A DNA stretch of 64,000 nt, taken from positions 930,001 to 994,000 of the forward strand of contig NZ_CP166871.1 of NCBI RefSeq assembly GCF_041379045.1, written 5' to 3'. The translations under genes and the position numbers were made by a program. Source of the stretch: Thalassotalea ponticola. GTDB lineage: Bacteria > Pseudomonadota > Gammaproteobacteria > Enterobacterales > Alteromonadaceae. Within the stretch, counting starts at the first letter, position 1, and every line of letters begins with the position of its first letter. A model generated the notes under the pieces. It worked only from the letters and a program-made list of their open reading frames with translations, had not been told where the DNA came from and did not search any database. Shown in pieces: positions 29,891 through 53,379 of this stretch.

Positions 29891-32800
29891 GTGAGAATAA
29901 ACACCATCACAAGTGCGTTAGCGGTTGCTTTGTATAGCGCCGGTTCAATGTACGCTGCTGCGGGTATAGCACCAGAAAATGACGTTCACACGTTAAACAA
30001 GCTAAACCTGACTCAGGAGCAAATTAATCAATACCAACTGAGCGCTAACGGGCAAACCGCTACCGGTTCAATGTTGGAAAATGATGGATTAAACGTTCAA
30101 GTTAATTCGCAACGCGCTAAGTTCCAGCACGAAGCCGATATCACGGGCGAGCATGTCTACGTCGTCCGCTTAAAAGACAAGCCAACCGCATTGTACAAAG
30201 GCGGTATTCTCGGTCTACAGGGAACACATGTACAAACCTTAAACCGCGACTTAGGTATCAGCAGCCTTTACGAAGCGGGTAAGCCTACTAGCGATCGCGT
30301 TGTTGCTTACACTAACTATCTTGAAAACAAGCAGTTAGCAACAATAGCAGAAATGAATCGCGTTGTTGGTACGAAACAAATTCGCAACCAATACACAACA
30401 GCGGTAAACGCCTACACGGTTGAATTGACCCAAGAAGAGGCGATGCGAGTTTCTCAATTGCCGCAAGTCGAATTTGTACATCGCGCTAAAACCTATGAGC
30501 TGCACACTGATGCAGGTCCACAAAAAATAAGTGCCGATCAGGTTTGGACAGGTTCAACAGAGCAGGGCGTACCGTACAAGGGTGAAGGCATCATCATGGG
30601 TATCATTGATACCGGTATTAACTCTGATCATCCTTCTTTTGCTGATGTTGGCGACGACGGTTACGATCACACTAACCCTTGGGGTAGTGGTGTATACGTA
30701 GGCGCTTGTGCTGAAGCCGGTAATGAAAACCTGTGTAACGATAAATTAATCGGTATTCGCACCTATGATGTTATCACCGATGCGTTTGACGCTATGATCC
30801 CTGGTTTCCCAGCCATTGGTGAAGATTATCAGGGCCACGGCTCACACGTAGCAGGTACGGCGGCGGGCAACGTGTTAAACAATGTTGATTACGTACTGCC
30901 AGAATACACGGGACAGCCAGCTGACGGTACCGTTATTAAAGAAGACATGTTCAACCTGTCTGGTGTCGCGCCACACGCGAATATTATTTCGTATCAGGTA
31001 TGTCACGCATCCAATGACTCGGGTTACCGAGGCTGTCCATGGGAGTCGATGATTGGCGGTATTGAAGACTCAATCAAAGACGGCGTTGATGTCATCAACT
31101 TCTCTATCGGTGGTCAAGACGATACATCACCTTGGGATGACGGCATAGAACTAGGTTTCTTAGCAGCACGCGAAGCGGGCATCAATGTTGCTGTGGCAGC
31201 GGGTAATGGTGGCCAAGCCGGTGGTGCAAAAGAGTTCTTTGGTTCAATTGACCATGCCTCACCTTGGTTGGCCTCTGTTGCGGCAACCACACACGACCGG
31301 GTGATTAAGGTTGACACGCCAGTTACTTTTGAAGGTTTTGCAACCGATGCCGACGGAGCGCCTCTAGGTTCTGAAGTACCTTGGTGGAGCGACACAGGAC
31401 GCGTGGGTGGCGCTATTAACGAAAGCGAAATTACCGGTGTTGTTGTTTGGGCCAAAGACTACGTCGATGTTAATGGTAACAAAGACTGGCGTGGATATTG
31501 TGGTACAGAGTATCCAGCGGGAACGTTCGATTTTTACAAAGACGGTACACCTATTGTCGGTGCGGCTGAAGGTGATACTAACGTAATCGTCGTTTGTGCG
31601 CGTAACGATTTACGCGATCCAAATGGTATCGCTCGTACTGCGAAAGTCGCTAATGTAAAAGCGGGTGGTGCTGATGGCTTCATCATGTACAACTATGCCA
31701 AAGGCGATGGGGTTCCCAGTGTGTCTTACGAATTGCCAGCTGTTCACCTTACTTATGAACAGTGGGAAGGTGAAGTTACCACTTGGGGCGAGCCAGGATA
31801 TAACTACGGTTTTAAAGACTGGATTGATTCATACTCTGAAAAGGGTCATATGATCACCATTGGCGCAACGGCAATATTTAACGATCACAATCCTGAACAC
31901 GGTGACTGGTTAGCTCCGTTCTCGTCTCGTGGTCCAAGTAATTCAACACCAGAAATGCTTATTCCGCAAATTGCTGCACCGGGTGTAAACATCTATGCTG
32001 CATACGCCGATGAACATCCATTTGTTGGTAATATGGGTAATACCGATTATGTCGCTATTAGTGGTACCTCAATGGCATCGCCACATGTTGCTGGTGCGAT
32101 GGCGCTAATTCGTCAAGCTCACCCTGATTGGACACCGACTGAAGTGCAATCAGCACTGATGCTAACTGCCGATAACGTTGTTCGGTATCGCCGTTTGAAC
32201 CAAGCGAATGGCGATGTTGGCGAAGCGTTTATTTATCGCGCTGGCGCGGGTCGTATTAATGTGGCCGAAGCTATCGATACCGGCCTAGTTATGGATGAAA
32301 CCATTGAAAACTTCAAACTGGCTAATCCAAATAACGGTGGTCAAGTACACCGCTTGAACATTCCTCAGTTAGTCAACATGGAATGTAAGCCAGTGTGTCA
32401 GTGGACTCGTACATTTAGAGCGACCAAAGACGGCTCTTGGACTGTCGATCACAGCGATGTTGTTAACTGGAACTTCGACCTTCGCAGCCAATCAGCGCAA
32501 AACGGCGTGAATATTTCTGCAACGCCAAGTGAATTCACGCTAAATGCTGGTGAAACACAAACAGTTGTATTTGAAGCGTCAATAATGGATACCCAAGACT
32601 GGTTCTCTAATGCTGAAGTCGAATTACACTCAGATGTTATTTTGACCGAAGTAAGCGGTGCTAGCTCAGAGGTTCACCTGCCAGTGGCCTTTAAGTTCTC
32701 GAAAAACGGTATGCCTGCTCGCCTTCGCGCTGTCGCTCACCGCAACGAGGGTAGCTTCCAGTTTAACGGTTTAGAATTACCTGCATTAGACACACCTTAC

Positions 32801-35185
32801 ACGCGTGTGTATCAACCGGTTAAAGCCGACGTCAAAACCGTTGCCTTGCCAAAAGATGATGATGGTTACTTCCCGTGGTCGTCAAATTCAGATGATGTTC
32901 CAGCATCATTCCGTATGGATGAAGCGACACACGTTGAAATGATCGAAGTACCAGCTGGTGCGAAACGCCTTATCGCAGAAGTGCAAGGCACCGTTCAGTC
33001 AGATCTTCACGGTCATATCGACGAGGGTAATGCGCTGATATACGTTGGTAAGGATTATAACCAAAACGGTGAAGCAGATGTGTCTGAGGAAATTCTTTGT
33101 GTATCAAATCACATTGAATTTAACAACTTCTGTAACATCAATAATCCTGAAGAAGGTACCTACTGGGCGGTAATATACAACCCAGGTAAATTGACTGGGC
33201 AAGCGCCTAATTGGACTGAACGATACCCAGATATTGCTGATGAGGAATTTGCTTATACAGTTGCTGTGGTAACCGATAGCGTTGCCTCTGATATGTCACT
33301 ACACGTTGAGCCAACGGATGGTAAAAATACCGTCAGTGCGACATTAAGCTACAACATGCCAGAGATGGCGGAAGGCGATATTTACTACTCAGTACTTGAT
33401 TTCGGTACCTCTGAAATCAACGCAGGTAACGTCGGTAAAGTTGCGTTCAAGCTTGAACGTGGTGTTGATGACATCAATCTAGATGTTACTCAAACCAAAG
33501 CGCGTGCGGGCGATGTGATTCCATACACATTCGAAGTACAACCGAATGATACCGGTGCTGATCGCGCGTTTACCATCACCGCTAACATGCCTCAAGGTTT
33601 GCGTTTTTCTGCGGAGGATATTTTTACCTCTAACGACGAAATCGTTACCGATATCAGTGTTGATGGTAATGTTGTAACCATTTCAGGTGTGCAACCAAAC
33701 ACCGCAGGTATTAAACCGCGATACATTCAAACAACCAACGTTGAAGATGCAATGTGTCGTATGCCTAACTTTGGCAACTCAAACCCAGGTGGTTATGTCG
33801 ACCTTGAAGAGTTTGGTTTTGCGCCAATATTCGGAGGTTTCAATAAAGGCGTTGACGAAAATGGCAACCCAACCGGTGATAACAACATTTTAATGCGCGA
33901 AGGTATTCAGCTACCTATCTCGGCATTATTTAATGGACGTTATGACGCTTGGCACTTGTACAACAACTCGGATCGTTTGAATATTAACCCTCAAAACTCG
34001 ATTCAGTTACGCGGTACTGGTGTGTTCGATTTATGGCAACAACCATTCTTCTTCCCATACCACTTGGGCTTCCCGTATAACTCATTCCCGTATGAGTCGG
34101 TAGGACCACTATGGCGTGGCATGGGCATTGGTGAAATGGGTACAGGCCCTGAATTTATGTCGGTTCCATTAATCAACAATTGGACTGAAAAAGCGGGTAT
34201 TTCTTTAGCGAGTACGCAAACAGGTTGGGGCATCATCGAAGTCGATAATGCGCGCAGCTACCGTTCGCTAGGTAGAGATTACACTCAGCCTAACCGTCCG
34301 TTCAAATGGGAAGAAAAAGACGACCGCTTTGATTACCAGCTAGTGTTTAACGTCAACACTCGTCACGGTAAAAATGAGCATGAAATCTATTACGCGTACG
34401 ACAACATTGATTTTGGTTCACAAAACGGCCGCGGTGCTATTGGTTTACAAGGCTTTACCGGACCAGTTTACTCGCGAGGCCCGATTTCAGGTGGGTTCCT
34501 TGGCGAAGAGTATGCGTATGATGATCTCGACAGCAAATTGCACGACGGCTTAGTCATTTGTTACGACTACTATGGTCCTGAGTCTTCACAATTTGAAGTT
34601 ACGGTATGGACACAAGTTGAGCGAGATGCGACTGGCGTCGACCAGGTCATGACAGCCACCAGTGTTGTTGACGGCATGGCAAACGTTGAAATGAGTCATA
34701 CTTTAGCGGTACCAACCAATATTCAGCTATCAGCTATTGCAGACATGGACGTTGCCGAGAATGACTCTGTGCAATTCAATGTCTACTACGCAGATAACTC
34801 TGAATTGGCAAGCGTAAATGAGATTATGGTCTCTGGTGAGAATATCTCAGCAACGGTTGAAGGTCATGAGCCAGGTTCTGCGATTACGATTACACCGAAG
34901 AAAAACTTCCACGGTGAGACACAAGTAACGGTAACCGTTGCGGATATTGAGAATCCAGCAGATAAAGCAAGTACGACGTTTGTGCTTAATGTTATCTCGG
35001 ATGGCAAGCAAAAAGGTTGTACCGATAGCTCGGCAAACAACTACGATGCTAACGCTAACGAAGATGACGGTAGCTGTGAATATCCTGAACTTGCTGAGAA
35101 AGATTCAGATAGCTCAGGTGGTTCTTTAGGTTACTTTGCAGTGATGCTATTAACCATGCTTGGATTGCGTCGTCGCATGCGCTAA
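29891..35185 (+). CDS. Secreted S8 subtilisin-like protease with PA insert and GlyGly-CTERM anchor (copy 1)
   Basis: A 1764-residue exported serine protease. A signal peptide (1 to about 24) and an I9-type propeptide (about 80-210) precede the peptidase: catalytic D240 (IIDTGINSDH), H316 (GHGSHVAGT) and S727 (SGTSMASPHVAG). A protease-associated insert (VVCARN, GGADGFIMYN) lies between His and Ser. Long beta-rich domains follow, then a cysteine/Asp repeat (GCTDSSANNYDANANEDDGS) and the C-terminal signal LAEKDSDSSGGSLGYF, a hydrophobic helix and RRRMR, the GlyGly-CTERM form cleaved by rhombosortase. GTG 29891 is chosen because GGAG sits six bases upstream and the signal peptide begins there. 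It is a paralogue of the protease at 44.7-49.8 kb. Confidence 0.92.
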   Translation: MRINTITSALAVALYSAGSMYAAAGIAPENDVHTLNKLNLTQEQINQYQLSANGQTATGSMLENDGLNVQVNSQRAKFQHEADITGEHVYVVRLKDKPTALYKGGILGLQGTHVQTLNRDLGISSLYEAGKPTSDRVVAYTNYLENKQLATIAEMNRVVGTKQIRNQYTTAVNAYTVELTQEEAMRVSQLPQVEFVHRAKTYELHTDAGPQKISADQVWTGSTEQGVPYKGEGIIMGIIDTGINSDHPSFADVGDDGYDHTNPWGSGVYVGACAEAGNENLCNDKLIGIRTYDVITDAFDAMIPGFPAIGEDYQGHGSHVAGTAAGNVLNNVDYVLPEYTGQPADGTVIKEDMFNLSGVAPHANIISYQVCHASNDSGYRGCPWESMIGGIEDSIKDGVDVINFSIGGQDDTSPWDDGIELGFLAAREAGINVAVAAGNGGQAGGAKEFFGSIDHASPWLASVAATTHDRVIKVDTPVTFEGFATDADGAPLGSEVPWWSDTGRVGGAINESEITGVVVWAKDYVDVNGNKDWRGYCGTEYPAGTFDFYKDGTPIVGAAEGDTNVIVVCARNDLRDPNGIARTAKVANVKAGGADGFIMYNYAKGDGVPSVSYELPAVHLTYEQWEGEVTTWGEPGYNYGFKDWIDSYSEKGHMITIGATAIFNDHNPEHGDWLAPFSSRGPSNSTPEMLIPQIAAPGVNIYAAYADEHPFVGNMGNTDYVAISGTSMASPHVAGAMALIRQAHPDWTPTEVQSALMLTADNVVRYRRLNQANGDVGEAFIYRAGAGRINVAEAIDTGLVMDETIENFKLANPNNGGQVHRLNIPQLVNMECKPVCQWTRTFRATKDGSWTVDHSDVVNWNFDLRSQSAQNGVNISATPSEFTLNAGETQTVVFEASIMDTQDWFSNAEVELHSDVILTEVSGASSEVHLPVAFKFSKNGMPARLRAVAHRNEGSFQFNGLELPALDTPYTRVYQPVKADVKTVALPKDDDGYFPWSSNSDDVPASFRMDEATHVEMIEVPAGAKRLIAEVQGTVQSDLHGHIDEGNALIYVGKDYNQNGEADVSEEILCVSNHIEFNNFCNINNPEEGTYWAVIYNPGKLTGQAPNWTERYPDIADEEFAYTVAVVTDSVASDMSLHVEPTDGKNTVSATLSYNMPEMAEGDIYYSVLDFGTSEINAGNVGKVAFKLERGVDDINLDVTQTKARAGDVIPYTFEVQPNDTGADRAFTITANMPQGLRFSAEDIFTSNDEIVTDISVDGNVVTISGVQPNTAGIKPRYIQTTNVEDAMCRMPNFGNSNPGGYVDLEEFGFAPIFGGFNKGVDENGNPTGDNNILMREGIQLPISALFNGRYDAWHLYNNSDRLNINPQNSIQLRGTGVFDLWQQPFFFPYHLGFPYNSFPYESVGPLWRGMGIGEMGTGPEFMSVPLINNWTEKAGISLASTQTGWGIIEVDNARSYRSLGRDYTQPNRPFKWEEKDDRFDYQLVFNVNTRHGKNEHEIYYAYDNIDFGSQNGRGAIGLQGFTGPVYSRGPISGGFLGEEYAYDDLDSKLHDGLVICYDYYGPESSQFEVTVWTQVERDATGVDQVMTATSVVDGMANVEMSHTLAVPTNIQLSAIADMDVAENDSVQFNVYYADNSELASVNEIMVSGENISATVEGHEPGSAITITPKKNFHGETQVTVTVADIENPADKASTTFVLNVISDGKQKGCTDSSANNYDANANEDDGSCEYPELAEKDSDSSGGSLGYFAVMLLTMLGLRRRMR

Positions 35186-35230
35186 GCACCTCGAAATAAA
35201 GATAAACTGAGTTTTATCCTATCAAGTAAA

Positions 35231-35257
35231 GCCGAGACACGAGTCTCGGCTTTTTTT
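35231..35257 (+). terminator. Intrinsic terminator after subtilase 1
   Basis: GCCGAGAC, loop ACGA, GTCTCGGC, then T7. A perfect eight-base GC-rich stem 46 bases after the stop codon. Confidence 0.95.
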
Positions 35258-35304
35258 ATGCTCACTCATGACATAGCTATGTCATGCTCTATCGATGAAA
35301 AGCC

Positions 35305-35838
35305 CTAGCGAGGGTGCTTTTTGTTAAAATTTTGGTAAGGATCAAAGGTCTTTTCAGCTGTGCTCTGGGCATCTGTGTGTGATCGTTGATCTGTGCTTTT
35401 GGCGGTGTTTTTACGAGTTTGTTGTCTCACCATTTGGTTACCAGACCACGGTGAGTTGCGGTTGTCACGCTGTCTAGAGGCGCTGGCTTTTTTTAATCGC
35501 AATCGCTCAGCATCTTCTAAGCTCAGCTCTTGTGGCGCTCTTGGCTTTTGCTCTAACGGGACAATTCGCTCTCGCGGCGGCAACTCAAACATCTCATCAG
35601 TGGCGCGAGGTAGGTTTTTGAACTGGTAAAGATAGAAACTTTCAACTTTGTGTTGCGCCCATTCGGTTTTCTTTACAAACTTTATACTGGCTTTGATGCT
35701 TGGGTTTTTCTTGAAGCAATTGAGGTTGAGGTATGCTGCCAGAATTTCCCAACCGTAATGGTCAACGAGCTCGGTTAGCACCTGTTCAAGGCTTGTACCG
35801 TGTAAAGGGTTATTTTCATATTCTTGCTGAGTATACAT
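35305..35838 (-). CDS. VF530 family (DUF2132) DNA-binding-like protein
   Basis: A 177-residue cytoplasmic protein. Residues about 8-80 match the VF530 family ([40 protein letters not shown]), a small helical domain named after a Vibrio fischeri protein and proposed to bind DNA. The tail from about 90 is charged, Arg/Gln/Ser-rich and low in hydrophobic residues, so probably disordered and suited to nucleic-acid contact. It sits between subtilase 1 and its neighbouring two-component quartet, on the quartet's strand but separated by a repeat-bearing spacer, so it is likely independent. Function unknown. Confidence 0.85.
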
Positions 35839-36034: not shown

Positions 36035-37225
36035 CTACGACAGCGCGTCTGCTGTTGGACACAAACGGGGAATGCTAACGCTGACCCTTGCCCCACCGAG
36101 CGAGGCGGCGCTTTTAGTCAATTTACCATGGTGGCGGTTTACAATAGATTCAACAATGTACAGTCCTAAGCCAAACCCGGTTGTGGTGCCTTGGTTATTT
36201 ACTCGCGGCTTGTTAGCGTCAAAACCTGGCCCGTCATCGTCAATGTGGAAGGTGACATTTTCTGGTTCAACATCCACACTGACCGACACTTTTTGCCGCG
36301 CATAGCGCAGGGCGTTATTCAGTAAGTTAGACAGGGCTAATTCTAGTTGTGCTTTATTAGCGTTTATTTGCGTGTCTTGCTGATGGTAAACAATATCAAC
36401 ACCAGTGTGCAGGTGTTGGTATTTGTCTGCTAAATTGGTGAGTAACGACTTGACGCTAATACTTTGCAGATACTGGGGATCAACCTGTTGAGAGCTGCTA
36501 AATACCATGTAGTCAGTGGCTAGGGTTTCTAACTCTGCAACGTCCATTAACATGCGGCTTAAGTGCTTATCCTCGATGTTACCTTCTATTCGCTTTAATA
36601 CGAACTTCATTCGAGCCAGTGGGGTACGCACTTCATGGGCAATAATTTTAGCAACATCTTTTTGTAAGCTAACAAACTCAACTAAGCGATTACTCATGGT
36701 ATACAAGGCGTGGGCTAGGGGGTATACGGTTGATTTCTTACTGATCGTAAGAGGTTGGGTTTGCTGATTTTCACCAAATTGCAACGCGCATCTTTGTAAA
36801 AAGGCCAAATCGCGAAACATCGGCCACATCAATACTAAAAAGATAATCGCCAGCGCACTGTAAAAAAATAAAATTAGATAATTGTCGTTTACAGGTTCTA
36901 ATTTGGTCGGTATTGGTCCCCATTGTACATAGGTTTTTGTGTCGTGCTCGCGCAAGTAGTAGGTGTGTTCACCAACGCTATAGGCGATTAACTCGTTATT
37001 GTTCAATCGCCTCATTAGCTGAGCAGAAAGCTGAATATTGGCTTTATCGAGGTAGCTAAAGCTTGCCCCTGTGGCGCTGTGTTGGGCGGTAAATACGGCG
37101 TCAACAGGGATGTTATACTGCACAGGTGGCGCATAAAACTGGGTATATAGTTTGCTGAAGCTAAAGACGAGAGCAAATACCGCAAGTAATATAAATGAAT
37201 AAAAACGAATAAAATGACTATGCAT
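36035..37225 (-). CDS. Sensor histidine kinase, RstB-like (module 1)
   Basis: A 396-residue inner-membrane kinase. Helices near 7-27 and 130-152 bracket a periplasmic sensor of about 100 residues. A linker resembling a HAMP region precedes the H-box with H197 in IAHEVRTPLARMKF, then LSNLLNNALRYA (N box), DDDGPGF (G1) and GFGLGLYIV (G2). It is last in the transcription order MipA - DUF3019 - regulator - kinase. ATG 37225 is chosen because it overlaps the end of the regulator gene by eight bases and starts at the basic/hydrophobic MHSHFIRFYSF; an upstream in-frame start at 37279 lies inside the regulator. Its partner is the adjacent regulator. Confidence 0.9.
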   Translation of the reverse strand: MHSHFIRFYSFILLAVFALVFSFSKLYTQFYAPPVQYNIPVDAVFTAQHSATGASFSYLDKANIQLSAQLMRRLNNNELIAYSVGEHTYYLREHDTKTYVQWGPIPTKLEPVNDNYLILFFYSALAIIFLVLMWPMFRDLAFLQRCALQFGENQQTQPLTISKKSTVYPLAHALYTMSNRLVEFVSLQKDVAKIIAHEVRTPLARMKFVLKRIEGNIEDKHLSRMLMDVAELETLATDYMVFSSSQQVDPQYLQSISVKSLLTNLADKYQHLHTGVDIVYHQQDTQINANKAQLELALSNLLNNALRYARQKVSVSVDVEPENVTFHIDDDGPGFDANKPRVNNQGTTTGFGLGLYIVESIVNRHHGKLTKSAASLGGARVSVSIPRLCPTADALS

Positions 37226-37925
37226 TATTGAGATAGGCCCAGTATTTAAAGACGTAGCCTTTACTGCGAATTGAAACAATGGTTAATTCATCAAAGCCGG
37301 CCGCAAGAAGTTTCTTGCGCAAACGGCTGATGCGTAGATCGGCGGCTCGATCTTTGCCGTCATAGCTGCGGCCAATGAGGTCAGTAAATAGACTATCGCG
37401 ATCGACCACATCGTCTCCGCGTTGAGCAAAGTACCAAATAACTTCAAATTCTTGTGCAGTTAAATCGAGCGTTTCACCACAGTATTTGGCTTGCGAGGTG
37501 GTTTTATCAAGACTGAGGTTACCCAAGGTTAGTGATGAGGCAAGTGCTCTTCTTTCGACCATGCGAATATTCGCCCTCACTCGAGCTAACAGTACTTCGG
37601 GATCCACGGGCTTTAAAATATAGTCGCAAGCGCCGGCGTTCAAGCCCTTAACTTGAGATGACGAGTCGGTCATTGCGGTGAGAAATAGTACTGGTACGTG
37701 CGGGTTACTCAAGAAACTGGGGAGCAGATTAAAACCGTCGGTATCCGGCAACATGATATCGCAGAGAATGATATCGAATCGATTTTGCTGAATTTGGCGC
37801 AGCGCGTTTTCACCGTCATTGACACAAACGACATTAAATTCAAAATCACTCAGGTAATCACTTACTAACTCGGCAAGTGGTAAATCATCTTCAATTAACA
37901 GAAGGTCGTAGTTTTTAACCGCCAT
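37218..37925 (-). CDS. OmpR/RstA-type response regulator (module 1)
   Basis: A 235-residue regulator. The receiver domain (5-120) has the acidic pair IEDD, phospho-acceptor D56 in LCDIMLPD, the switch Thr in FLTAM and Lys in LKPVD. The winged-helix domain (about 135-230) carries LTAQEFEVIWYFAQRG and the recognition segment DRAADLRISRLRKKL, which closely resembles RstA. ATG 37925 overlaps the DUF3019 stop by one base (TAATG), so the two are translationally coupled. Its targets are unknown; the own operon and the nearby subtilase are candidates by position only. Confidence 0.92.
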   Translation of the reverse strand: MAVKNYDLLLIEDDLPLAELVSDYLSDFEFNVVCVNDGENALRQIQQNRFDIILCDIMLPDTDGFNLLPSFLSNPHVPVLFLTAMTDSSSQVKGLNAGACDYILKPVDPEVLLARVRANIRMVERRALASSLTLGNLSLDKTTSQAKYCGETLDLTAQEFEVIWYFAQRGDDVVDRDSLFTDLIGRSYDGKDRAADLRISRLRKKLLAAGFDELTIVSIRSKGYVFKYWAYLNNA

Positions 37926-38344
37926 TATAATATCCACCCTAGATTTCGTCTCGGACGCTGGTTAGCTGGTTTAAACTCAGCAATAGCGAGCGTTTTTGAA
38001 TAAACAAGGTCATTGTTATCGGAATTTACGATGGTAATCGTGGTATTTTCGTCGATAGACAACAGCTGTTGAAACTTCACCTGTTTAACGTGAACAAAGC
38101 ACTGTTTGATGTTTAACGCTTCAATGAGTAAACATATATTCATTGGCGTAGTGAATTTTAGCTCGGCATCAAGTTCTACTTGGCACGATTCACTGAGCTG
38201 ATCGCGAATACAAACTTGCGGTGTGATATGGACTTCAGCTAGGTTTGATGAAGTCGACAATGCCTGTTGCGCCATCGCCATAAAGGTTGGCGCACAGTAC
38301 GTGATAATCGTCAGCAGGTGTTTCGAAAGTGGCGTGAATCTCAT
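37925..38344 (-). CDS. DUF3019 exported four-cysteine protein (module 1)
   Basis: A 139-residue protein with a signal peptide ending near MAMAQQ. The mature part has exactly four Cys in the pattern C-x8-C-x16-C-x10-C, beginning in TPQVCIRD, which predicts two disulphides in a small beta fold. The C-terminus, RPRRNLGWIL, is basic then aromatic. The same pattern recurs in the paralogue at 50957. DUF3019 genes are known to sit beside MipA and two-component genes in Shewanella relatives, but the function is undefined. ATG 38344 starts one base after the MipA stop; the frame is also open farther upstream, into mipA. A periplasmic sensing accessory is a reasonable guess. Confidence 0.85.
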   Translation of the reverse strand: MRFTPLSKHLLTIITYCAPTFMAMAQQALSTSSNLAEVHITPQVCIRDQLSESCQVELDAELKFTTPMNICLLIEALNIKQCFVHVKQVKFQQLLSIDENTTITIVNSDNNDLVYSKTLAIAEFKPANQRPRRNLGWIL

Positions 38345-38345
38345 G

Positions 38346-39185: not shown

Positions 39186-39311
39186 TGGTAATACATATCG
39201 CTTATTGGCAAAAAAGGTTAATTCGTAATCAACGGTTTTTTAATATAAATGGCATCGTATTGCAATCAACTAACGGCTTTTTTATGTACAGATTTGTAGA
39301 TTTAACCTTGT

Positions 39312-43800: not shown

Positions 43801-43954
43801 ATCGGCAACTCGTATATAGCACACTAAAAAGGGGTACGTTAACCATAGTTGTTGGCCGGTTAACTGACAAGTCTCGTCGCCATTTGGGCACCTTAGAAAA
43901 TGATTAATTTACTTAACTTTATGGCTGATTTTTATATCGTGAGCTAGGCTAAAT

Positions 43955-43984: not shown

Positions 43985-43996
43985 ATGGAGATGAAC

Positions 43997-44664: not shown

Positions 44665-47600
44665 TTATTTTTTACCTAGGGCACGACGGCCAACTAGAGG
44701 CAACAACAATAGTAAGTAGAACAAGCTACCACCTGAAGACTTGTCGTCTTTTTCAGCAAGATCTTTGTCTTTGATCTTCTTAACAACACTTACGGTAACA
44801 GAGGCTGATGCTTCGTACATACCGTCAGATACGGTTACAGTGTACTCGTATTCACCTACCGCTAAGTCGCTGATAGTTGGTGTTGCAGTATTTGCATCGG
44901 TAATCGTACCTTGACCTTCCCACTCAAACGTTAGCGCATCGCCATCAGCGTCTGCAGCCATTGCGTTAAGAGTAACAGAATCACCTTCTTCAACTTCAAC
45001 AACAGCAGCGTCGAATGCCACGGTTGGCATATCGGCTTCTGGCATTACTGTTAACATGAAGCTTGTGGTGTAGCTATCTGATGGGTATAGGTTATCGGTA
45101 ACGGTAACAAATACTTCGGTTTCGCCACTAAAGTCAGCAGCTGGGATGATATCAATCATTGAACCAGGCTCATGACCGTGAACCGTTGCACTGATGTTGT
45201 CACCAGTAACGGTAATGGTATTCGCACCTTGGTCTGAATCAGAGTATGCAACCATGATACCTTCTAGCACAGAGTCTTCAGCAACCATTTGATCGTTGAT
45301 AGCACCGACTTTGATGTTACTAGGAACTTCAACAATGTGCTCAACAACCATTGCGTCTAGACCTTCAACGTTATTGTCTACATTGAATACTAGTGTATTA
45401 CCCGTAGCGTTTTCGTTGATGCGTGCTTGGAAAGTCATCTCAAATTGAGACGCTTCTGGGCCCACTAAGTCGTAACAAATGATCAAGTCATCTTCAAGTT
45501 TGTCTTGCAAACCATTGTAGCTAAATGACGTACCTTTGTAGCCATACAGTGGCGCGAAACTGCTGCGCGCACCGTGGAAACCTTGTACACCGATTGAGCC
45601 GTCGCCCGATGATGAACCAAAGTCAAGGTTGTCATACGCTTTGATGATTTCAAAGTCGCCTTTGTTGTAGCTAGTGTTCATGTTTAGGATTACTTGGAAG
45701 TCATAGCTGTCACCGTGCATCGGTTCGAAAATAGGCTCCCATGTATCCCAATTTGTGCCAACGTAGGTTTCGCTTTGTGCGTTGTCCCACTCAATAATAA
45801 GTTGCTTATCTTGAGTCATCGCAACAGAGACACCGGCATTTAGCTCTGGGTCGTTGTGTGGCATGAACGGAACGCTCATCGACGCACCATCACTTGACAA
45901 GAAGCCACCTTTCCACATAACACCAATCATTTGGTCAGGGAAGCTCCAGTAAGGGAATGGCAAGTGAGCATCAAAGAACATTGGCATACCATTTAATTCA
46001 ACGTAACCGCGAGGGCTCACGTGAATACTGCGCGTACCGGCGTACTCGTGGTTGTCGTATAACGCATACTCAACATCGTCGTACCAGAACAGGTTAAATG
46101 GCAATTCAACGTTTTGCGTGTTACCACCAAAGCTTGGGTAAATACCAAACTGTTGAAGGTCAACGTAACCACCGTCAGATGGGCCACCAAAATTAGGTGT
46201 CATACACATCGCATCGTTGAGACTCGTGGTCATTACATATTCGTATTCCATGTCTCGTGAGTCGAATTGTGTTGCTTCAACGGTAAAGCCGTTATTCATT
46301 TCTTCGATTTGTGCATCGAATTGGCTTTTCACGCTAACTGAACCAGGGATCAAGGTTGCACCTTCAGGCATAGCGGCCGCTAAGCTGATGTTGCGATCTT
46401 GACCGGTTTTGTTAGCAACAACCTTTAAGGTAACATCAACGATGTCTCCACCTTTTGCTTGGTCTTGGCTTGCGTCAACGCTAACTTCGTTAACACCACG
46501 CTCCAAGCGAACAGGCACAAGACCTACGTTGCCAGGGTTACCAGCGTCAGTACCGATATCAAATGCAGAGTAAACGATCTCACCTTTTTCAAGGCCGTCG
46601 AAGTTCCAGTGCATTTCAACTGCGTACGGAGCGATACCATCTGTGGTTGTAGGACCTGTTACGGTGATCTCGTTGGTTACTTGGTCGCTGACAACAGCCG
46701 TCGCCATGCGGTAAGTATCTTCAGGACGGTCGCCGTCCCAGTACATTTTGTGGTTGTGAACAACAACCCAGTACTTACCAGCGTCAGGATTGTTGATGTT
46801 ACACCAGTTGGTTTCCCAAGCGGCATTTGACCAACAAATCGCTTCTTCTTGCAATTGTACTTCGCCATCGCCGTTAGCATCGATACCCATAAGCAGTGAT
46901 GAAACGCCTTTGTCCCACTCGTTAGCCGCTGTTGACGACACGTGACCAAGCATTTCAGCGATAACGCGCTTGCTACCAGCAGGTACGTCAATCCACACAA
47001 CCTTGTCACTGTCTTCAATTAAACCGTCATTAAACGGGCTGTAGCTATCGTCATCTTGAGGTAAGGTGAACTCGATTACATTAGCTTTTTCAGGTTGGAA
47101 TGCACGCGAAGTAAAGTCTTGGATGGCTTCCGTTTGTAGGCCACCAATAACCTCTTTGCCACTGTCGCGGTGGATAACACTTTCAACTTTAGTTGGTAAT
47201 GCACCGTGATCAAATCGCAATGCTGCAGGCCATAACACTGAAGGTATTTCAGGGTTGTCTGCGGTTAAGCGGATTTTACCGTGTACTTCTAACTCAGAAC
47301 CGTGCAGACGGTTTTGGCTGTCAAGTACTTCACCTTCGATAAGGATGGTTTGGATGTCACCAGCTTTAAGCTCAAAGGTTTCAGGGTAAGCGCGAAGCTT
47401 AACACTGTACTCACTTGTTTCTGTTGAAACAGTCCATGTACCGTCGCGTGTTGCCTTAACGGTTCTTACCCACACACATTTTTGCTTACAGTTCATGTCA
47501 AGCACTTGTGGTAAGTTCAAGTTGCGAGGGTCGCCACCGTTTTGAGGGTTAGCGTCCATAAAGTTTTCAATACTTTCGTCCATGATTAGACCAGCATTGA

Positions 47601-49818
47601 TCGCATTAGCAACGTTGATAACACCGGTACCAGCATCGTAGAAGCTTGCTTCTTTAGGACCTTGCCAATCTACAACTTTCGCTGGAGTCGCAGTCATTTG
47701 CAACGCAGATTGAACTTCAGTTGGCGTCCACTCTGGGTGAGCTTGTTGTACAAGAGTTAAAGCACCTGCAACGTGCGGGCTTGCCATTGATGTACCACTT
47801 AAACTAGCCCAATCAGCTGATGATGGGTACATAGTGAATGGATGCTCATCGGCATACGGCGCGTAAATACCAACACCTGGCGCAGCAATTGTAGGTACAA
47901 ACAAGTGTTTGTGAGTAACAGATGGACCACGCGATGAGAAATCGGCAATGACATCAACGCGTTCTTCGTTGATACGTGTTGAAATCTCACTAGCGGTAAT
48001 TGTTGCCATATGGCCTTCGCCTGTTGACAACCACTCCACTAATTGTGAACCACCTCGTGCATCAATATGCGCACCAGGAAGTGAGTACACATCATTGACA
48101 ATATTGCCTTCTGGGCCGTAGTACTGTTCATTGTATAAAACAAAACCACCAGCGCCACCGGCTAATACGTTATCGGCCTTAGCTACACGTGCCAGTTCAC
48201 CGCGCTTACAGACAACGATTTCACCGTTGAACGTACCTTCCGGGAACGGCTCAGCACATAATTCATCACCGTAGCTAGCCGCTAAAACGATGTTCGAGCT
48301 GTAAGCGTCTGAGATACCGCCACCAGTAATATCCATTGGAGGCGTGGTATCACCGCCGCTCATTTCAGCAATTGATTTACCTTCAACGGCTATCTCACGA
48401 CCGTGTTCACTTGCGGCAACAATGGTTTGCCAAGGAGCCGTGTGAGAGATGTTGTAGTGACCAGCGTTACCAGCTGCTACTGCTACGTTGATACCGGCTT
48501 CGCGAGCCGCTAGGAAACCAAGCTCCATCGCGTCTTCCCAAGGGAAAGGCTCACCACCACCGATAGAGAAGTTAATGGCATCAACACCGTCTTTAATCGC
48601 ATCTTCAATCGATGCAAGAATCGACTCGTCAGGACAACCCACATAAGGATCGTTGCCACCACCAGGGTAACATACTTGGTACGAGATAATGTTGGCATGA
48701 GGAGCAACACCAGATACTCGAGGGAAAGTAAAGCCTGTTTCAATACCGTCGCCGTCACCTGGCTCGGCTTGCATTAATGGTGCGTCGAAAATAACGTTAC
48801 CAGCAGCAGTACCAGCTACGTGAGAACCGTGACCATTGTAATCTTCACCGTTTTTCGGGCGAATTAGCTCATTTGGAGCCCAAGGATTAGGGTTGTCTTG
48901 GAACTCATCAGCGTCGTATACGTCGGTAATGACACTGTAACTGCGAACACCAATAAGTTTATCGTTACACATGTGCTCTTGGCCGGCTACAGTACAGTCA
49001 CCGACGTAAACACCTTCACCCCATGGGTTAGTGTGATCGTAGCCGTCACCGCCGATGTCGGCGAATGCCACGTGGTCGGTATTGACACCAGTATCGATGA
49101 TACCGACGATCATGCCTTCACCTTTAAGCTCGGTTTGCACCACGGTGTCACCTGTCCATGCTTTATCGGCTTCGATGTGCTCTGGACCCACGTCGGTTAG
49201 TAGCTCTTTCATACGAGAGCGTTGAATGCTCGCAACTTCCGGTAATTTCGCTAAACGCACCGCTTGTTCTTGGGTCATGCGAACCGACATACCGTTAAAT
49301 GCAGTGGTGTATTGGAAGCGTGGCTGCAACTGAATACCTACGGCATTGCTTGCTTTTTGTAAAAAGCTACCTTGCTTGCTTAGTAGGTAATTCTCATATT
49401 TGGCAATTGCTTGTTTATTATCACGTGTCGCTGAGAACAATTTATGCTCGCCAGTTGCTTGAGTGGCGTTTAAGGCAGTTGCCTCGTAGCCTGAGATGTG
49501 ACCATTGTAAGTCGCAACTGGGTTGTCATTAAGGCGAATGATATAGGTTTGTTCACCGGTTACGTCTGCTTCAGGAACAAATTTACGCTTGCTTCCTAGC
49601 GGTTGTAAATGGCGGTTAACACTACCACGAGGGTTTTTCATTGAACGTTCGTTGTGTTTTACAACGCCGTCTCTTTTTAATTTGCTTAATGCTGCTTGAG
49701 GAATATCAAGTCCCTTCAACGTTGAACCATTCATTGGTGCAACATCGTTGGCAGCTGCTATGGCACTGTAGCTGTAAAGTACGGTACCGATAGCTAAAGC
49801 TACGGATTTCATTTTCAA
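44665..49818 (-). CDS. Secreted S8 subtilisin-like protease with PA insert and GlyGly-CTERM anchor (copy 2)
   Basis: A 1717-residue paralogue of the 29.9-35.2 kb protease. Signal peptide 1 to about 22 (ending AIAAA), propeptide about 80-210, then catalytic D242 (IIDTGVNTDH), H330 (GHGSHVAGT) and S677 (GTSMASPHVAG). A PA insert (GEIVVCKRGE, GGAGGFVLYN) lies between His and Ser. Long beta-domains include GGYVDLQQFGIYPSFGG, also seen in copy 1. The stalk ends with a PKD-like domain (DGDALTFEWEG) rather than the Cys/Asp repeat of copy 1. The anchor is LAEKDDKSSGGSLFYL, a helix and GRRALGKK. The start is TTG 49818 with AGGAG eight bases upstream; ATG 49812 is an alternative. Divergent from module 2. 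Confidence 0.92.
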   Translation of the reverse strand: MKMKSVALAIGTVLYSYSAIAAANDVAPMNGSTLKGLDIPQAALSKLKRDGVVKHNERSMKNPRGSVNRHLQPLGSKRKFVPEADVTGEQTYIIRLNDNPVATYNGHISGYEATALNATQATGEHKLFSATRDNKQAIAKYENYLLSKQGSFLQKASNAVGIQLQPRFQYTTAFNGMSVRMTQEQAVRLAKLPEVASIQRSRMKELLTDVGPEHIEADKAWTGDTVVQTELKGEGMIVGIIDTGVNTDHVAFADIGGDGYDHTNPWGEGVYVGDCTVAGQEHMCNDKLIGVRSYSVITDVYDADEFQDNPNPWAPNELIRPKNGEDYNGHGSHVAGTAAGNVIFDAPLMQAEPGDGDGIETGFTFPRVSGVAPHANIISYQVCYPGGGNDPYVGCPDESILASIEDAIKDGVDAINFSIGGGEPFPWEDAMELGFLAAREAGINVAVAAGNAGHYNISHTAPWQTIVAASEHGREIAVEGKSIAEMSGGDTTPPMDITGGGISDAYSSNIVLAASYGDELCAEPFPEGTFNGEIVVCKRGELARVAKADNVLAGGAGGFVLYNEQYYGPEGNIVNDVYSLPGAHIDARGGSQLVEWLSTGEGHMATITASEISTRINEERVDVIADFSSRGPSVTHKHLFVPTIAAPGVGIYAPYADEHPFTMYPSSADWASLSGTSMASPHVAGALTLVQQAHPEWTPTEVQSALQMTATPAKVVDWQGPKEASFYDAGTGVINVANAINAGLIMDESIENFMDANPQNGGDPRNLNLPQVLDMNCKQKCVWVRTVKATRDGTWTVSTETSEYSVKLRAYPETFELKAGDIQTILIEGEVLDSQNRLHGSELEVHGKIRLTADNPEIPSVLWPAALRFDHGALPTKVESVIHRDSGKEVIGGLQTEAIQDFTSRAFQPEKANVIEFTLPQDDDSYSPFNDGLIEDSDKVVWIDVPAGSKRVIAEMLGHVSSTAANEWDKGVSSLLMGIDANGDGEVQLQEEAICWSNAAWETNWCNINNPDAGKYWVVVHNHKMYWDGDRPEDTYRMATAVVSDQVTNEITVTGPTTTDGIAPYAVEMHWNFDGLEKGEIVYSAFDIGTDAGNPGNVGLVPVRLERGVNEVSVDASQDQAKGGDIVDVTLKVVANKTGQDRNISLAAAMPEGATLIPGSVSVKSQFDAQIEEMNNGFTVEATQFDSRDMEYEYVMTTSLNDAMCMTPNFGGPSDGGYVDLQQFGIYPSFGGNTQNVELPFNLFWYDDVEYALYDNHEYAGTRSIHVSPRGYVELNGMPMFFDAHLPFPYWSFPDQMIGVMWKGGFLSSDGASMSVPFMPHNDPELNAGVSVAMTQDKQLIIEWDNAQSETYVGTNWDTWEPIFEPMHGDSYDFQVILNMNTSYNKGDFEIIKAYDNLDFGSSSGDGSIGVQGFHGARSSFAPLYGYKGTSFSYNGLQDKLEDDLIICYDLVGPEASQFEMTFQARINENATGNTLVFNVDNNVEGLDAMVVEHIVEVPSNIKVGAINDQMVAEDSVLEGIMVAYSDSDQGANTITVTGDNISATVHGHEPGSMIDIIPAADFSGETEVFVTVTDNLYPSDSYTTSFMLTVMPEADMPTVAFDAAVVEVEEGDSVTLNAMAADADGDALTFEWEGQGTITDANTATPTISDLAVGEYEYTVTVSDGMYEASASVTVSVVKKIKDKDLAEKDDKSSGGSLFYLLLLLPLVGRRALGKK

Positions 49819-50129
49819 GGTTTTATCTCCTGTTATTATTATCGGGTTACATGTTTTGGTGAGCGTGTTGCGAAGCTTTTAAGGTTAAACGTCGTAACAA
49901 ATATTCAACAAAAACGTAACGCCCTATTATCAGTACCATAGATGGATGAGTGATATTGTTCGAAATTGTTTGAGTTGTTACAGAGCGTTGTTCACCGGCC
50001 AATTTGATCGCGGGCAAAGCTTGTTTTAGGGTTAACGAATAATGCTTATTTTGGTGATAGACAGTGGTTAAATTGCTTGCTAGTATGCACAAACAGTTCA
50101 CAATCATTACAAGTTGTTAACCACTTTTC
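49819..50129. other. Divergent control region between subtilase 2 and module 2
   Basis: A 311-base region with both promoters and no gene. It is AT-rich, with the AGGAG of the protease at about 49827-49831 (minus strand) and a TTGTTAA half-site at 50114-50120 close to the mipA start. No clear palindrome was found. Confidence 0.4.
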
Positions 50130-50957
50130 ATGTTGTATCGTTCACTAGCAATGCTGTTATTTTGCTGTATTAGTGCAATTGGCAATGTAATCGCAAACGA
50201 AGATGATCAGGTGGCCATCAAACAATGGCACTTTTCTTTATCTGCAGGCTATGGTGTTATTGAAACACCGATAGCGCGTAACGATGACTTAGAATTTTAT
50301 CTTTACCCCCGCGTAAGCTATTACAGCGACCGATTTTTCATTGAAAATACTACCTTAGGCTACGCTGTGTATGAGCAGGGGCCGGTGATTATTGATGTGG
50401 TCGGTAGACTCAACGAGGATGGTTTGTATTTTAAACTGGACGACGTTGGCGTACTCAGTGCGGTGGGGTTTGATGCTGGGCGAGGTGAGCAGTTTTACGG
50501 TGTTGATGACGTTGAGCGCGATTTGTCGTATCTCGCAGGGGTCGCGGTGAACTATGATCTTGACTTTGTTTACGCCACGGCGGGTTATTATCACGATATC
50601 AGTGCTGTACATCACGGTGATGAAATCGATTTAAGCCTGTCTAAAGTACTCACGATTGATCAGCTTTCTGTGCGCTTAGAACTACAAGCCAATCGAAAAA
50701 GTCGTGATTTAATTGATTATTATTATCAAATTTTGCCTGAAGAATCGGTGATTTTTGTTGGCACTTACCAACCCGGTAAGGCCAGCATTAACTACCAAAC
50801 AAGTGTTAGCTTTGATTATCAGCTATCGCGTCGTTGGTCACTTACTGCTTTTTATCGCAAAACGTGGTTAGGCGATGGCATTAGCGACAGTCTCATTATC
50901 GACACCGACTCGGTTGACTTATTTTTTACCGGGGTAACATATAGGTTTAACCGATAA
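50130..50957 (+). CDS. MipA/OmpV family outer-membrane protein (module 2)
   Basis: A 275-residue barrel protein, paralogue of the one at 38346. Signal peptide 1 to about 23 (ending VIANE). Family features are GYGVIETPIARND, PRVSYYSDRFFIENTTLGYA, DVERDLSYLAG, SAVHHGDEIDLSLSK and the terminal strand FTGVTYRF. It is the first gene of the quartet, and its stop overlaps the next start by one base (TAATG). It is likely an outer-membrane barrel with a sensing or scaffold role. Confidence 0.88.
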   Translation: MLYRSLAMLLFCCISAIGNVIANEDDQVAIKQWHFSLSAGYGVIETPIARNDDLEFYLYPRVSYYSDRFFIENTTLGYAVYEQGPVIIDVVGRLNEDGLYFKLDDVGVLSAVGFDAGRGEQFYGVDDVERDLSYLAGVAVNYDLDFVYATAGYYHDISAVHHGDEIDLSLSKVLTIDQLSVRLELQANRKSRDLIDYYYQILPEESVIFVGTYQPGKASINYQTSVSFDYQLSRRWSLTAFYRKTWLGDGISDSLIIDTDSVDLFFTGVTYRFNR

Positions 50958-51415
50958 TGAATAAGCCGTTGTATTTCTCTGTTATCCTTGTGTTCGTGTA
51001 CTTTGCCAGTGCATCCAATGCACACGCTGATGATTCGTCAATAAAAGACTCTCGCGGTATTTTATGGGGAGAACACAAGGCACAAAAACGCAACCAATTG
51101 CTTACCTTGCAACCGGCGATTTGTGTTGTTGAACAGCGCGGCGACCTGTGTGAGCAGACAGTGACCGTGCGTTTGGCCTTGCCCAAGCGCACCGCTATTT
51201 GTATTTATCAAGACGGTATTAAGACACCGCTTTGGTGTCATGACAAGGCGCAGTATCAACTGTTTTCGATAACCGTTAAATCAGACAAAAATATTAATCT
51301 TTATATAGAAGAGCAAGCCCATAAAACGGTGATTGGCTCATCGCAAATTTCGGTAAATGTATTTCAACCGGCGCCCACACGGAAAAAGCGCCGTTATGGT
51401 TTAGGGTTTTTGTAA
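50957..51415 (+). CDS. DUF3019 exported four-cysteine protein (module 2)
   Basis: A 152-residue protein with a signal peptide (about 1-23, ending NAHA). The mature part has four Cys in the pattern C-x8-C-x16-C-x11-C, starting in LQPAICVV, nearly identical in spacing to the module 1 protein. The end, KKRRYGLGFL, is again basic then aromatic. It overlaps both neighbours by one base (TAATG at each junction), so all three are translationally coupled. Function unknown; a periplasmic partner of the MipA barrel or of the kinase sensor is plausible. Confidence 0.85.
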   Translation: MNKPLYFSVILVFVYFASASNAHADDSSIKDSRGILWGEHKAQKRNQLLTLQPAICVVEQRGDLCEQTVTVRLALPKRTAICIYQDGIKTPLWCHDKAQYQLFSITVKSDKNINLYIEEQAHKTVIGSSQISVNVFQPAPTRKKRRYGLGFL

Positions 51416-52110
51416 TGCAAACACACGATAGTTCTATTTTATTGATTGAAGATGATATTCCGCTAGCCAATTTAATTAAAACGTATCTCGAGTCAAACCG
51501 TTGCAGTGTCACCCATATAGCCAGAGGCCTTGATGTCAAAAAACTCGCTAATGATCGTCAGTTTGATTTGGTCGTATGCGATGTCATGCTACCCGACATA
51601 GATGGTTTTCGATTGCAGCCCATTTTGCAAAAGAAATTGTCCTGTGAAGTTATATTCTTAACCGCTATTAACGAAGACAACTCGCATATAAAAGGGCTAG
51701 AGCTCGGTGCTATCGATTATATTGTAAAGCCCGTCGAGCCTAAGGTTTTACTGGCACGGATCCGCGCTAATCTAAGAAAAAGCTTACCGCACGTGTCGTT
51801 GGACATGTTAAAACTGGGTGACTTGGTGCTCGATAGAAAGCGCAAAGTGATTGAATATCAGGGCAAGCCATTAGAACTCACAGACAACGATTTCGACTTG
51901 ATGTGGATCTTTTCGCAACATCAAGGGGAACCTCTGTCTCGAGAGTTTTTATTTCAAGCCGTTGTCGGGCGCGAATACAATGGGTTAGACCGTATTATTG
52001 ACGCACGAACCATGCGTTTGCGCAAAAAAATCAGTGACTTCAATATTCCAGGCCTGTCTATATCCACTCTTTGGGGCAAGGGCTATTTATTTACCTACAC
52101 TCAACACTAA
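51415..52110 (+). CDS. OmpR-type response regulator (module 2)
   Basis: A 231-residue regulator. The receiver has IEDD, phospho-acceptor D56 (VCDVMLPD), the switch Thr in FLTAI and Lys in VKPVE. The winged helix has LTDNDFDLMWIFSQHQG and the recognition segment DRIIDARTMRLRKKI. That segment differs at several positions from the module 1 regulator (DRAADLRISRLRKKL), so the two probably bind different DNA. It starts within the DUF3019 stop and is followed by its kinase after 33 bases. Confidence 0.92.
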   Translation: MQTHDSSILLIEDDIPLANLIKTYLESNRCSVTHIARGLDVKKLANDRQFDLVVCDVMLPDIDGFRLQPILQKKLSCEVIFLTAINEDNSHIKGLELGAIDYIVKPVEPKVLLARIRANLRKSLPHVSLDMLKLGDLVLDRKRKVIEYQGKPLELTDNDFDLMWIFSQHQGEPLSREFLFQAVVGREYNGLDRIIDARTMRLRKKISDFNIPGLSISTLWGKGYLFTYTQH

Positions 52111-52143
52111 CGGCGTTGAGTAAGTCAGCTAACACGAGCACGT

Positions 52144-53379
52144 ATGCGCTACCAATTTTACCGTTTTTATTTATTGCTGATCTTATTGGCAAGCATCATC
52201 ATTTTGTCGTTTAACCAAATCGTCAAGACCTTGGATGACTCAAGTGAACACTACTCAATTAACATCGATTATTTGTTTTCTGCCTTTGAGCATCAAACCA
52301 ACAAGCTTGGAGAATCGAAGCTTGGTCTACCACAATTTGAGTATTTGAATGCTGGTGATTTGGCGCTCCCTGAGTCGTTGCAAAGCAGTCTTAGCCAAGG
52401 TCAGGCCATCGCGTTACTCAATGACGACAAGCAAACCTATTACTACCGTAGGGCAATACATAGCGATCAAGTGATTCGACTTGGTCCCGTTGCCGTAGAA
52501 AGAGAAAAAAATAGTTACTTTATTTACTTGGTGATGGTGTTTTACGCCTGTTTAGCCATGTTGTTATTGGCGATGATGCGTCCGCTATTTAGAGACTTAC
52601 AACGGTTGCAGAACGACGCCGATAATTTTGGTCGACAACCGGTCACAATGCAAAGCCAGATCAAACCGTCATCGAGTATATACCCACTTGCCAAAGCCTT
52701 TAACCGAATGTCCAGTAAGATCGTTGGTTTAATTGATATGAACAAGGACTTATCGCGGGCGATATCACATGAGATACGAACGCCCTTAGCGCGGATGAAA
52801 TTTATGTTGGCGATTATTTCAGACAAACTCGATGGCCAACAACAGCAACAAATATCGAGTGACATCCATGAAATTGAGTTTTTGGTTAATGACTATTTGT
52901 CATTTGCAAAGGTCGAAGGGCACACGGAAAAAGACAACTTTAAACTCTATTCTCCGCGTTCATTTTTAAAACTTATTCAGCAAAAATTTGCCATTTATGC
53001 CGACGACATTGATTTTCAAATGAACGCAGGTGTCGAAAAAGCGCGTTTTGACAAGGACAGTTTAGCGCTAGCAACACAAAACTTACTCACCAATGCCCTG
53101 CGTTATGCCGATAGCCAAATAAGGGTAAGTTTCTACGTTAAAGATCGGCGCTGTTATTTACAGGTTGAAGACGATGGACCTGGTATTGCAGAGCAAAGTG
53201 ACAGCTTACAACAAGCATTTAAACGAGACAGCAGTGATGACGATGCGCACCAAGGTTTTGGTTTGGGCTTGTATATCGTGAAAAACATCAGTTTGTTGTA
53301 CGAAGGGGAGTTTACCATCGCTCGGTCATCCGAACTTGGTGGCGCAAGCATGTTGTTGAGTTGGCCAAACGAACGCTAG
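52144..53379 (+). CDS. Sensor histidine kinase, RstB-like (module 2)
   Basis: A 411-residue inner-membrane kinase. Helices near 7-23 and 125-147 flank a periplasmic domain of about 100 residues. H209 lies in ISHEIRTPLARMKF, followed by TQNLLTNALRYA (N box), EDDGPGI (G1) and GFGLGLYIV (G2). It shares the start pattern MRYQFYRFYLL with the module 1 kinase (MHSHFIRFYSF). It closes the module 2 quartet. No clear ribosome binding site is seen before the ATG; a weak one overlaps the TAACACGAGCACGT stretch. Confidence 0.9.
   Translation: MRYQFYRFYLLLILLASIIILSFNQIVKTLDDSSEHYSINIDYLFSAFEHQTNKLGESKLGLPQFEYLNAGDLALPESLQSSLSQGQAIALLNDDKQTYYYRRAIHSDQVIRLGPVAVEREKNSYFIYLVMVFYACLAMLLLAMMRPLFRDLQRLQNDADNFGRQPVTMQSQIKPSSSIYPLAKAFNRMSSKIVGLIDMNKDLSRAISHEIRTPLARMKFMLAIISDKLDGQQQQQISSDIHEIEFLVNDYLSFAKVEGHTEKDNFKLYSPRSFLKLIQQKFAIYADDIDFQMNAGVEKARFDKDSLALATQNLLTNALRYADSQIRVSFYVKDRRCYLQVEDDGPGIAEQSDSLQQAFKRDSSDDDAHQGFGLGLYIVKNISLLYEGEFTIARSSELGGASMLLSWPNER

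Follow-up and report, generated by a model that had tools for sequence, protein, structure and literature searches.

Why does one bacterial genome carry, 11 kb apart, two sets of the same four envelope-related genes, each adjoining a serine protease of about 1,700 residues? The question is raised by a stretch of 64,000 nucleotides (the window; bases 930001-994000 of the one-contig, 3.35-Mb genome of Thalassotalea ponticola). Here two quartets, each encoding in the same order a MipA/OmpV family outer-membrane barrel (MipA), a protein of the DUF3019 family, an OmpR-type response regulator (RR) and a sensor histidine kinase (HK), lie beside giant subtilases of family S8 (S8-1 and S8-2), all with open reading frames. 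The copy 1 quartet (36035-39185, minus strand) is convergent with S8-1, and the copy 2 quartet (50130-53379, plus strand) is divergent from S8-2. A sequence-only reading of the window had described this layout correctly and had proposed that the barrel and DUF3019 serve as the input of the sensor, that the subtilase is its output and that all parts were duplicated together. From gene neighbourhoods, promoter repeats and trees, we suggest that each module is an envelope-sensing circuit of RstAB-like kind, mostly insulated from the other, whose output is a giant surface protease, a reading to which we give a probability of roughly 70%. Co-occurrence and promoter sequences give good support to the protease as output. 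The history of the modules seems to be one of partner exchange.

Gene neighbourhoods of the quartet

Is the quartet a unit, and is its proximity to giant proteases more than coincidence? Of 394 genomes sampled within the order, 87 encode DUF3019, and the 140 loci retrieved, each of up to 20 kb around DUF3019 matches, yielded 142 open reading frames (ORFs) for 143 matches, with none recovered at L164. With the window included, 132 of the 142 ORFs are preceded by MipA and followed by RR and HK, all in one orientation, bearing out the expectation that MipA and DUF3019 genes stand beside two-component genes in related bacteria. Judged by gene order, the quartet is a real unit, a general module whose neighbours depend on the lineage. 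Among the 137 sets used for the RR+HK tree (5 of the 142 lack an RR or HK), the neighbour is a giant S8 protease in 25, a PF09826 beta-propeller lipoprotein in 18, a TonB receptor in 13, a beta-lactamase-fold hydrolase in 4, an M16 peptidase in 1 and another family in 76, the families being named through one scanned representative per sequence cluster in a table without 4 of the 142 ORFs.

The linkage to proteases was counted in 80 of the 87 DUF3019 genomes, the less complete G096, G111, G113, G152, G165, G349 and G393 being omitted. Of 61 giant S8 genes, 24 have a DUF3019 match no more than 5 kb away, against 0.45 expected; the counts may run low because at most six candidates were scored per genome. 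On these positions, the linkage between protease and quartet is not a matter of chance, and the co-occurrence elsewhere that the sequence-only reading had called for is found. The linked proteases are divergent from the quartet in 21 of 24 cases, downstream on the same strand in two (L039 and L101) and convergent in one, copy 1 of the window.

Several neighbourhoods deserve mention in their own right. The PF09826 lipoprotein is divergent from the quartet in its 18 sets (L043, L054, L057, L088, L096, L125, L136, L143 and others), the position that the S8 gene takes elsewhere. A PF00144 beta-lactamase-fold hydrolase cluster stands beside the quartets at L055 (the scanned representative), L045, L048, L073 and L126 and recalls MipB of Pseudomonas aeruginosa. 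At L093, in genome G059, two MipA-DUF3019 pairs precede a single RR-HK pair and adjoin a divergent giant S8 gene.

Promoter boxes at proteases and quartets

What might connect the regulators to the proteases? The regions 5' of S8-linked quartets contain 94 exact 5-mer repeats at a period of 10, against 12.8 in dinucleotide shuffles, and 32 at a period of 11, against 11.2; quartets with other neighbours also carry the period-10 signal (158 against 53.6). A TGTA-N6-TGTA direct repeat is present in 20 of the 30 S8-lineage regions, against 0.45 in mononucleotide shuffles and 0 to 2 regions for each of eight other periods tried (7 to 15), with related rows that are not independent included in these region counts. 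The boxes come in two flavours that track the recognition helix of the regulator, as assigned by eye: RRs with DLKIS or DLRIS go with TGTAGCATTTTGTA, and RRs with DARTS or DARTM go with TTGTACGAA-type repeats.

We built one model for each flavour with the window left out, from 15 relatives' boxes (RR1-type) and from 10 boxes (RR2-type), and scored every 22-mer of the window (127,958 sites). The RR1-type model places first a site on the promoter side of S8-1, TTGTGTAGCATTTTGTAGCACC (29777-29798, minus strand; 23.7 bits), 93 bp ahead of the S8-1 start. Its 16-mer core TGTAGCATTTTGTAGC (29780-29795) has its sole exact copy in the genome here. Where two genes diverge, a box between them could belong to either; the S8-1 box is informative on the protease because mipA1 lies 9 kb away. 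Upstream of mipA1 itself the model finds TTATGTACAGATTTGTAGATTT (39282-39303, plus strand; 12.6 bits, window rank 3). The RR2-type model places second TATTGTTCGAAATTGTTTGAGT (49954-49975, plus strand; 13.4 bits), in the intergenic region between S8-2 and mipA2. The two types separate within the window: the S8-1 box scores 1.9 bits with the RR2-type model, and the RR1-type model reaches at best 4.2 bits in the copy 2 region. Of the two window copies, copy 1 has the period-10 TGTA/TACA half-sites, and the copy 2 box has TGTT half-sites.

Beyond the window, TGTAGCATTTTGTA with up to one mismatch has 58 matches in 18 genomes, against 22 for a reversed-pattern control, and 25 of the 58, including 18 of the 22 exact ones, lie at the start of a giant S8 gene or at a quartet promoter. 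By a tally made by hand, 10 of 16 linked giant S8 genes carry the box in these genomes. Of the seven genomes tried from a genus labelled g25, six have exactly two copies each of the RR2-type box at up to two mismatches. All 12 copies lie in the intergenic region between S8 and mipA, and the control gives 5 matches in 8 genomes. A further pattern, TGTAGNWNTTTGTA, was picked after two of its matches were known and is not counted as a test.

Some boxes stand in other settings. G147 has an S8-lineage quartet but no giant S8 found among up to six candidates scored; an exact RR1-type box there (L203, G147:C1:554918) stands ahead of a gene for a lipoprotein-like protein and of a different subtilase. 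An S8 gene and an RR gene of the same type stand opposite each other in G095 with such a box between them, and the 4.8 kb on the RR side contain neither MipA nor DUF3019 nor a quartet-type HK. At L205 and L206 (G382 and G356) an acylphosphatase gene has an exact box about 190-220 bp in front of it, and at L189 (genome 580341) a one-mismatch box lies about 50 bp before a gene for a large secreted protein of immunoglobulin-like (Ig)/invasin/cadherin type.

The proposed circuits and their input

How would such circuits work? Each quartet would form an RstAB-like two-component system (TCS) with its own envelope input, MipA in the outer membrane and DUF3019 in the periplasm. On a signal, the HK would phosphorylate its cognate RR, which would bind the period-10 direct repeat and switch on its own quartet together with the giant, rhombosortase-processed surface subtilase. 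Insulation would follow from box type, RR1 reading TGTAGCATTTTGTA-type boxes and RR2 reading TTGTWCGAA-type boxes, and one or two giant S8 genes of this genome that lie far from any quartet are probably under RR1 control as well. The sequences themselves show the association of the genes, the conservation and placement of the boxes and the agreement of box flavour with recognition helix; that the regulators bind these sites, that they activate rather than repress, and that MipA, DUF3019 and HK are in contact, we infer. If the OmpV-CarRS and MipBA-ParRS systems are a guide, cationic peptides or comparable damage to the outer membrane would be the most probable signal, and peptides or proteins at the surface the substrates of the protease.

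A close parallel is in P. aeruginosa, in which MipA is described as binding polymyxins and mipBA as needed for induction of mexXY-oprA through ParRS (PMC10936184). There too a MipA-family barrel and a second envelope protein adjoin a TCS whose regulator drives the sensor genes. Unlike DUF3019, which is small and Ig-like in a predicted model, MipB is a beta-lactamase-fold lipoprotein, and the output there is an efflux pump rather than a giant protease (PMC10936184). None of the eight quartet proteins of the window matches a beta-lactamase family. In Vibrio cholerae, CarR is reported at the ompV promoter by chromatin immunoprecipitation and responds to a defensin (PMC9178039). The OmpV-CarRS (VprAB) system likewise sets a MipA/OmpV-family barrel beside an antimicrobial-peptide-induced TCS, and CarR needs an RstA-like box at tcpP; the text available for that system names no DUF3019 and gives lipid A modification and virulence genes as outputs (PMC9178039, PMC13413815). 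The window MipA proteins score 28.9 and 40.6 bits with the OmpVVibrio equivalog model, far under its cut-off of 400.

RstA and RstB are the best NCBIfam models for both RRs and both HKs, and the scores stay below the equivalog cut-offs (RstA 166.3 and 158.6 against 330; RstB 146.2 and 198.3 against 478). The likeness extends to the DNA: period-10 tandem TACA/TGTA half-sites lie 5' of the presumed targets, and the RstA box as reported, TACANNNNNNTACA, is the reverse complement of TGTA-N6-TGTA (PMC4117788). For the protease, the nearest known counterparts are GlyGly-CTERM/rhombosortase surface proteases such as V. cholerae VesB, which is a serine protease, is secreted and ends in a GlyGly-type tail (PMC6219818). 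A rhombosortase is encoded in the genome studied here (182 bits against a cut-off of 84). Unlike VesB as described, the window proteases belong to family S8, are about 1,700 residues long and have a two-component module next door (PMC6219818).

The placement of MipA and DUF3019 on the input side, which the sequence-only reading had put forward, is plausible; it draws on the 132 of 142 association and on the two analogues just named. Read by eye, the start of DUF3019 resembles a signal peptide. The protein has four cysteines invariant in a 22-sequence alignment and, in an AlphaFold2 model, an Ig-like core at about residues 46-137 with only generic structure matches. The net charge of its tail is at least +4 in 116 of 142 proteins, a Trp falls within the last six residues in 132 and Phe comes last in 105, and MipA is net negative in 127 of 132. 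One scheme, which we regard as a long shot, is that the tail acts as a ligand decoy in or on an acidic MipA barrel, so that a cationic peptide would displace it, freed DUF3019 would switch the HK, and a giant protease that destroys the peptide would be made. MipA2, with a net charge of -17, would fit this scheme well, and MipA1, at -1, poorly. Alternatively, the tail might imitate the signal that outer-membrane proteins carry at their C-terminus.

Alternative explanations

Could the circuits serve another purpose? They may be for digesting nutrient or biofilm-matrix proteins, or for envelope quality control, with a signal other than a cationic peptide. Several unlinked copies of the giant subtilase, as for extracellular digestion, the box before the large Ig/invasin-type secreted protein, and sister quartets that pair with TonB receptors or beta-propeller lipoproteins all speak for such a role. 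The closest studied systems of a MipA/OmpV protein with a TCS are described as answering cationic peptides (PMC10936184, PMC9178039), and we hold the digestive or quality-control role to be a serious possibility at somewhat short of even odds.

Less probable is that MipA and DUF3019 are themselves outputs of the TCS, as repair or transport proteins, and not sensors. They are the leading genes of an operon-like set that has an RR-type box in front of it, and mipBA of P. aeruginosa is itself reported as a ParR target (PMC10936184). On the other side, the two genes are retained with the TCS nearly always (132 of 142) while other neighbours change, and deletion of mipBA is reported to have abolished polymyxin induction of mexXY-oprA in P. 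aeruginosa (PMC10936184). We consider a pure output role unlikely.

Another alternative is that the regulators control only their own quartets, the S8 genes being adjacent by descent and the boxes beside them being relics or serving mipA. Since S8 and mipA share one intergenic region in 21 of the 24 linked cases, a box there need not serve the protease, and 27 of the 31 unlinked giant S8 genes of the 18 genomes have no box at up to one mismatch. However, exact boxes are found at S8-1 and at the S8 gene of L039, in regions that hold no mipA promoter, and four unlinked giant S8 genes carry the TGTAGCATTTTGTA box (in G000, G095, G291 and G329), one of them belonging to this genome, at 2,230 kb. 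In addition, in eight genomes one copy sits 108-126 bp ahead of the point where the aligned S8 protein begins (115 bp for S8-1), and several S8/mipA intergenic regions hold a second box closer to mipA. A site picked post hoc in G059 (L176) also scores 18.3 bits with the RR1-type model; it lies about 360 bp ahead of where the alignment of a further unlinked S8 gene begins. We judge control of the quartets alone to be improbable, and the proposal that the subtilase is an output gains from regulator-type boxes 5' of S8 genes, some of which share no mipA promoter.

A number of observations weigh against the circuits as we propose them. The exact TGTA-N6-TGTA repeat is missing from 10 of the 30 S8-lineage mipA regions, in counts that include non-independent rows, and the RR1-type box at up to one mismatch is missing from 6 of the 16 linked as well as from the unlinked giant S8 genes just counted. 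The third S8 gene in a region without a mipA promoter, the same-strand one of L101, is boxless. In the window, the mipA1 box is oriented opposite to those of its relatives, the S8-1 box might be left over from an earlier, divergent layout, and the first-ranked site of the RR2-type model (29384) lies inside an unrelated gene (28635-29555) and is also second for the RR1-type model; this site is probably noise. Elsewhere in this genome, the S8 gene at 780 kb has no RR1-type box, and the S8 gene at 633 kb has an upstream site of 12.9 bits and one inside the gene of 13.2. A loose pattern allowing three mismatches is not enriched genome-wide (21 matches against 46 for the reversed control), so the regulon cannot be read from it. 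The RR2-type pattern at up to two mismatches has no match in this genome or in G195, the seventh g25 genome, whose quartet is placed elsewhere in the tree; by its sequence, the copy 2 box of the window is a degenerate version of the g25 box. Because that box is degenerate and missed by the g25 pattern, our confidence in the two circuits is slightly lower than it would be. Finally, OmpV of Vibrio mimicus is argued in a 2026 study to work independently of CarRS (PMC13413815).

Origin of the two copies

How did two such modules come to lie in one genome? The copies share 32% identity in MipA, 19% in DUF3019, 40% in RR, 32% in HK and 39% in S8, and by these values are old paralogues. The trees agree as a whole, the S8 and RR+HK trees being correlated (Mantel r 0.55, none of 5,000 permutations as high; r 0.51 and 1 of 5,000 in a thinned set of 17), and the S8 label changes 7 times on the RR+HK tree against a shuffled mean of 23.4 (none of 500 shuffles as low). 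One 29-row RR+HK group holds 22 of the 25 S8-labelled rows, both window copies included. For the window copies themselves, the partners differ. In the RR+HK tree, pair 1 is sister to L039 and pair 2 to g25, whereas in the S8 tree, built from the 24 linked and 10 of the 37 unlinked giant S8 proteases, S8-1 groups with L121/L150 and relatives (100/100), S8-2 forms a separate deep branch and the S8 of L039 groups with g25. Forcing S8-1 and the L039 S8 into one clade is rejected in the approximately unbiased (AU) test with p-AU 6e-46, and forcing S8-2 together with the g25 proteases with p-AU 3e-49, with constraint groups chosen after inspection of the other tree and some long branches. Because the two trees disagree for both copies, a single co-duplication, as the sequence-only reading had supposed, is rejected: duplication of protease and quartet as one five-gene cassette, for all that the parts and quartet order are the same, the copies lie 11 kb apart in one genome and both RR+HK pairs fall inside the protease-linked lineage, is highly improbable. 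The trees suggest that the modules came together as partners were exchanged inside an old lineage linked to proteases.

Gene content of the window

S8-1 (29891-35185, plus strand) starts with GTG and encodes 1,764 residues, with an I9 propeptide, S8 and PA domains and a GlyGly-CTERM tail, and S8-2 (44665-49818, minus strand) encodes 1,717. The S8 domains score 146.7 and 134.3 bits with the Pfam model, and both proteases have all three catalytic D/H/S motifs of the family. The shared domain plan that had been read from the sequence stands for I9, S8 and PA; the C-terminal Ig-type region is common to both, with the match of S8-1 under its cut-off (21.5 against 23.6). The GlyGly-CTERM assignment (TIGR03501, cut-off 15.5) passes for S8-1 at 22.8 bits and falls short by 0.1 for S8-2 at 15.4. 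This genome has at least five giant S8 genes and only two DUF3019 matches (E <= 0.001).

In copy 1, on the minus strand, mipA1 (38346-39185) is followed by DUF3019 (37925-38344; signal-peptide-like start by eye, four core cysteines and a cationic C-terminal tail), RR1 (37218-37925) and HK1 (36035-37225). A VF530-family gene (35305-35838, minus strand) intervenes between HK1 and S8-1, a qualification to the convergent layout; it is probably a bystander. Copy 2, on the plus strand, comprises mipA2 (50130-50957), DUF3019 (50957-51415; in the AlphaFold2 model the Ig-like sandwich is followed by a less certain tail), RR2 (51415-52110), whose recognition helix, DARTM, is unlike that of RR1, and HK2 (52144-53379). 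The phosphorylation motifs, His in the HKs and Asp in the RRs, are intact in both copies. PF06629 (MipA/OmpV) matches at 100.3 and 102 bits, above its gathering score of 24.2, and PF11456 (DUF3019) at 44.3 and 63.1, above 25. The junctions are mostly as tight as had been claimed, with one-base TAATG overlaps at DUF3019/RR in copy 1 and at MipA/DUF3019 and DUF3019/RR in copy 2, a TAA-C-ATG at MipA/DUF3019 and an 8-base RR/HK overlap in copy 1; the sole junction that is not tight is RR/HK of copy 2, with a gap of 33 bases.

Two other places in the window were noted by eye. A short-chain-dehydrogenase-like ORF of 112 residues (43486-43824) looks truncated, and its end adjoins a metallo-hydrolase gene. 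The segment 19415-25104 encodes proteins of heavy-metal resistance-nodulation-division (RND) efflux type and ferredoxin-reductase type, both with PepSY-like membrane stretches.

Significance

DUF3019 is an uncharacterized family, and the word does not occur in the literature searched. Its constant company places it as the third member of an outer-membrane-sensing two-component module, a variant of the MipA/OmpV-TCS kind in which DUF3019 would be the constant part and giant proteases a lineage-specific output. What had been an observation of MipA near two-component genes becomes a set of testable promoters, boxes and outputs, and the six g25 genomes in which the box was found at one intergenic region only would represent a clean, dedicated one-locus regulon. 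The arrangement also offers a route by which sensing at the outer membrane may lead to proteolysis at the cell surface.

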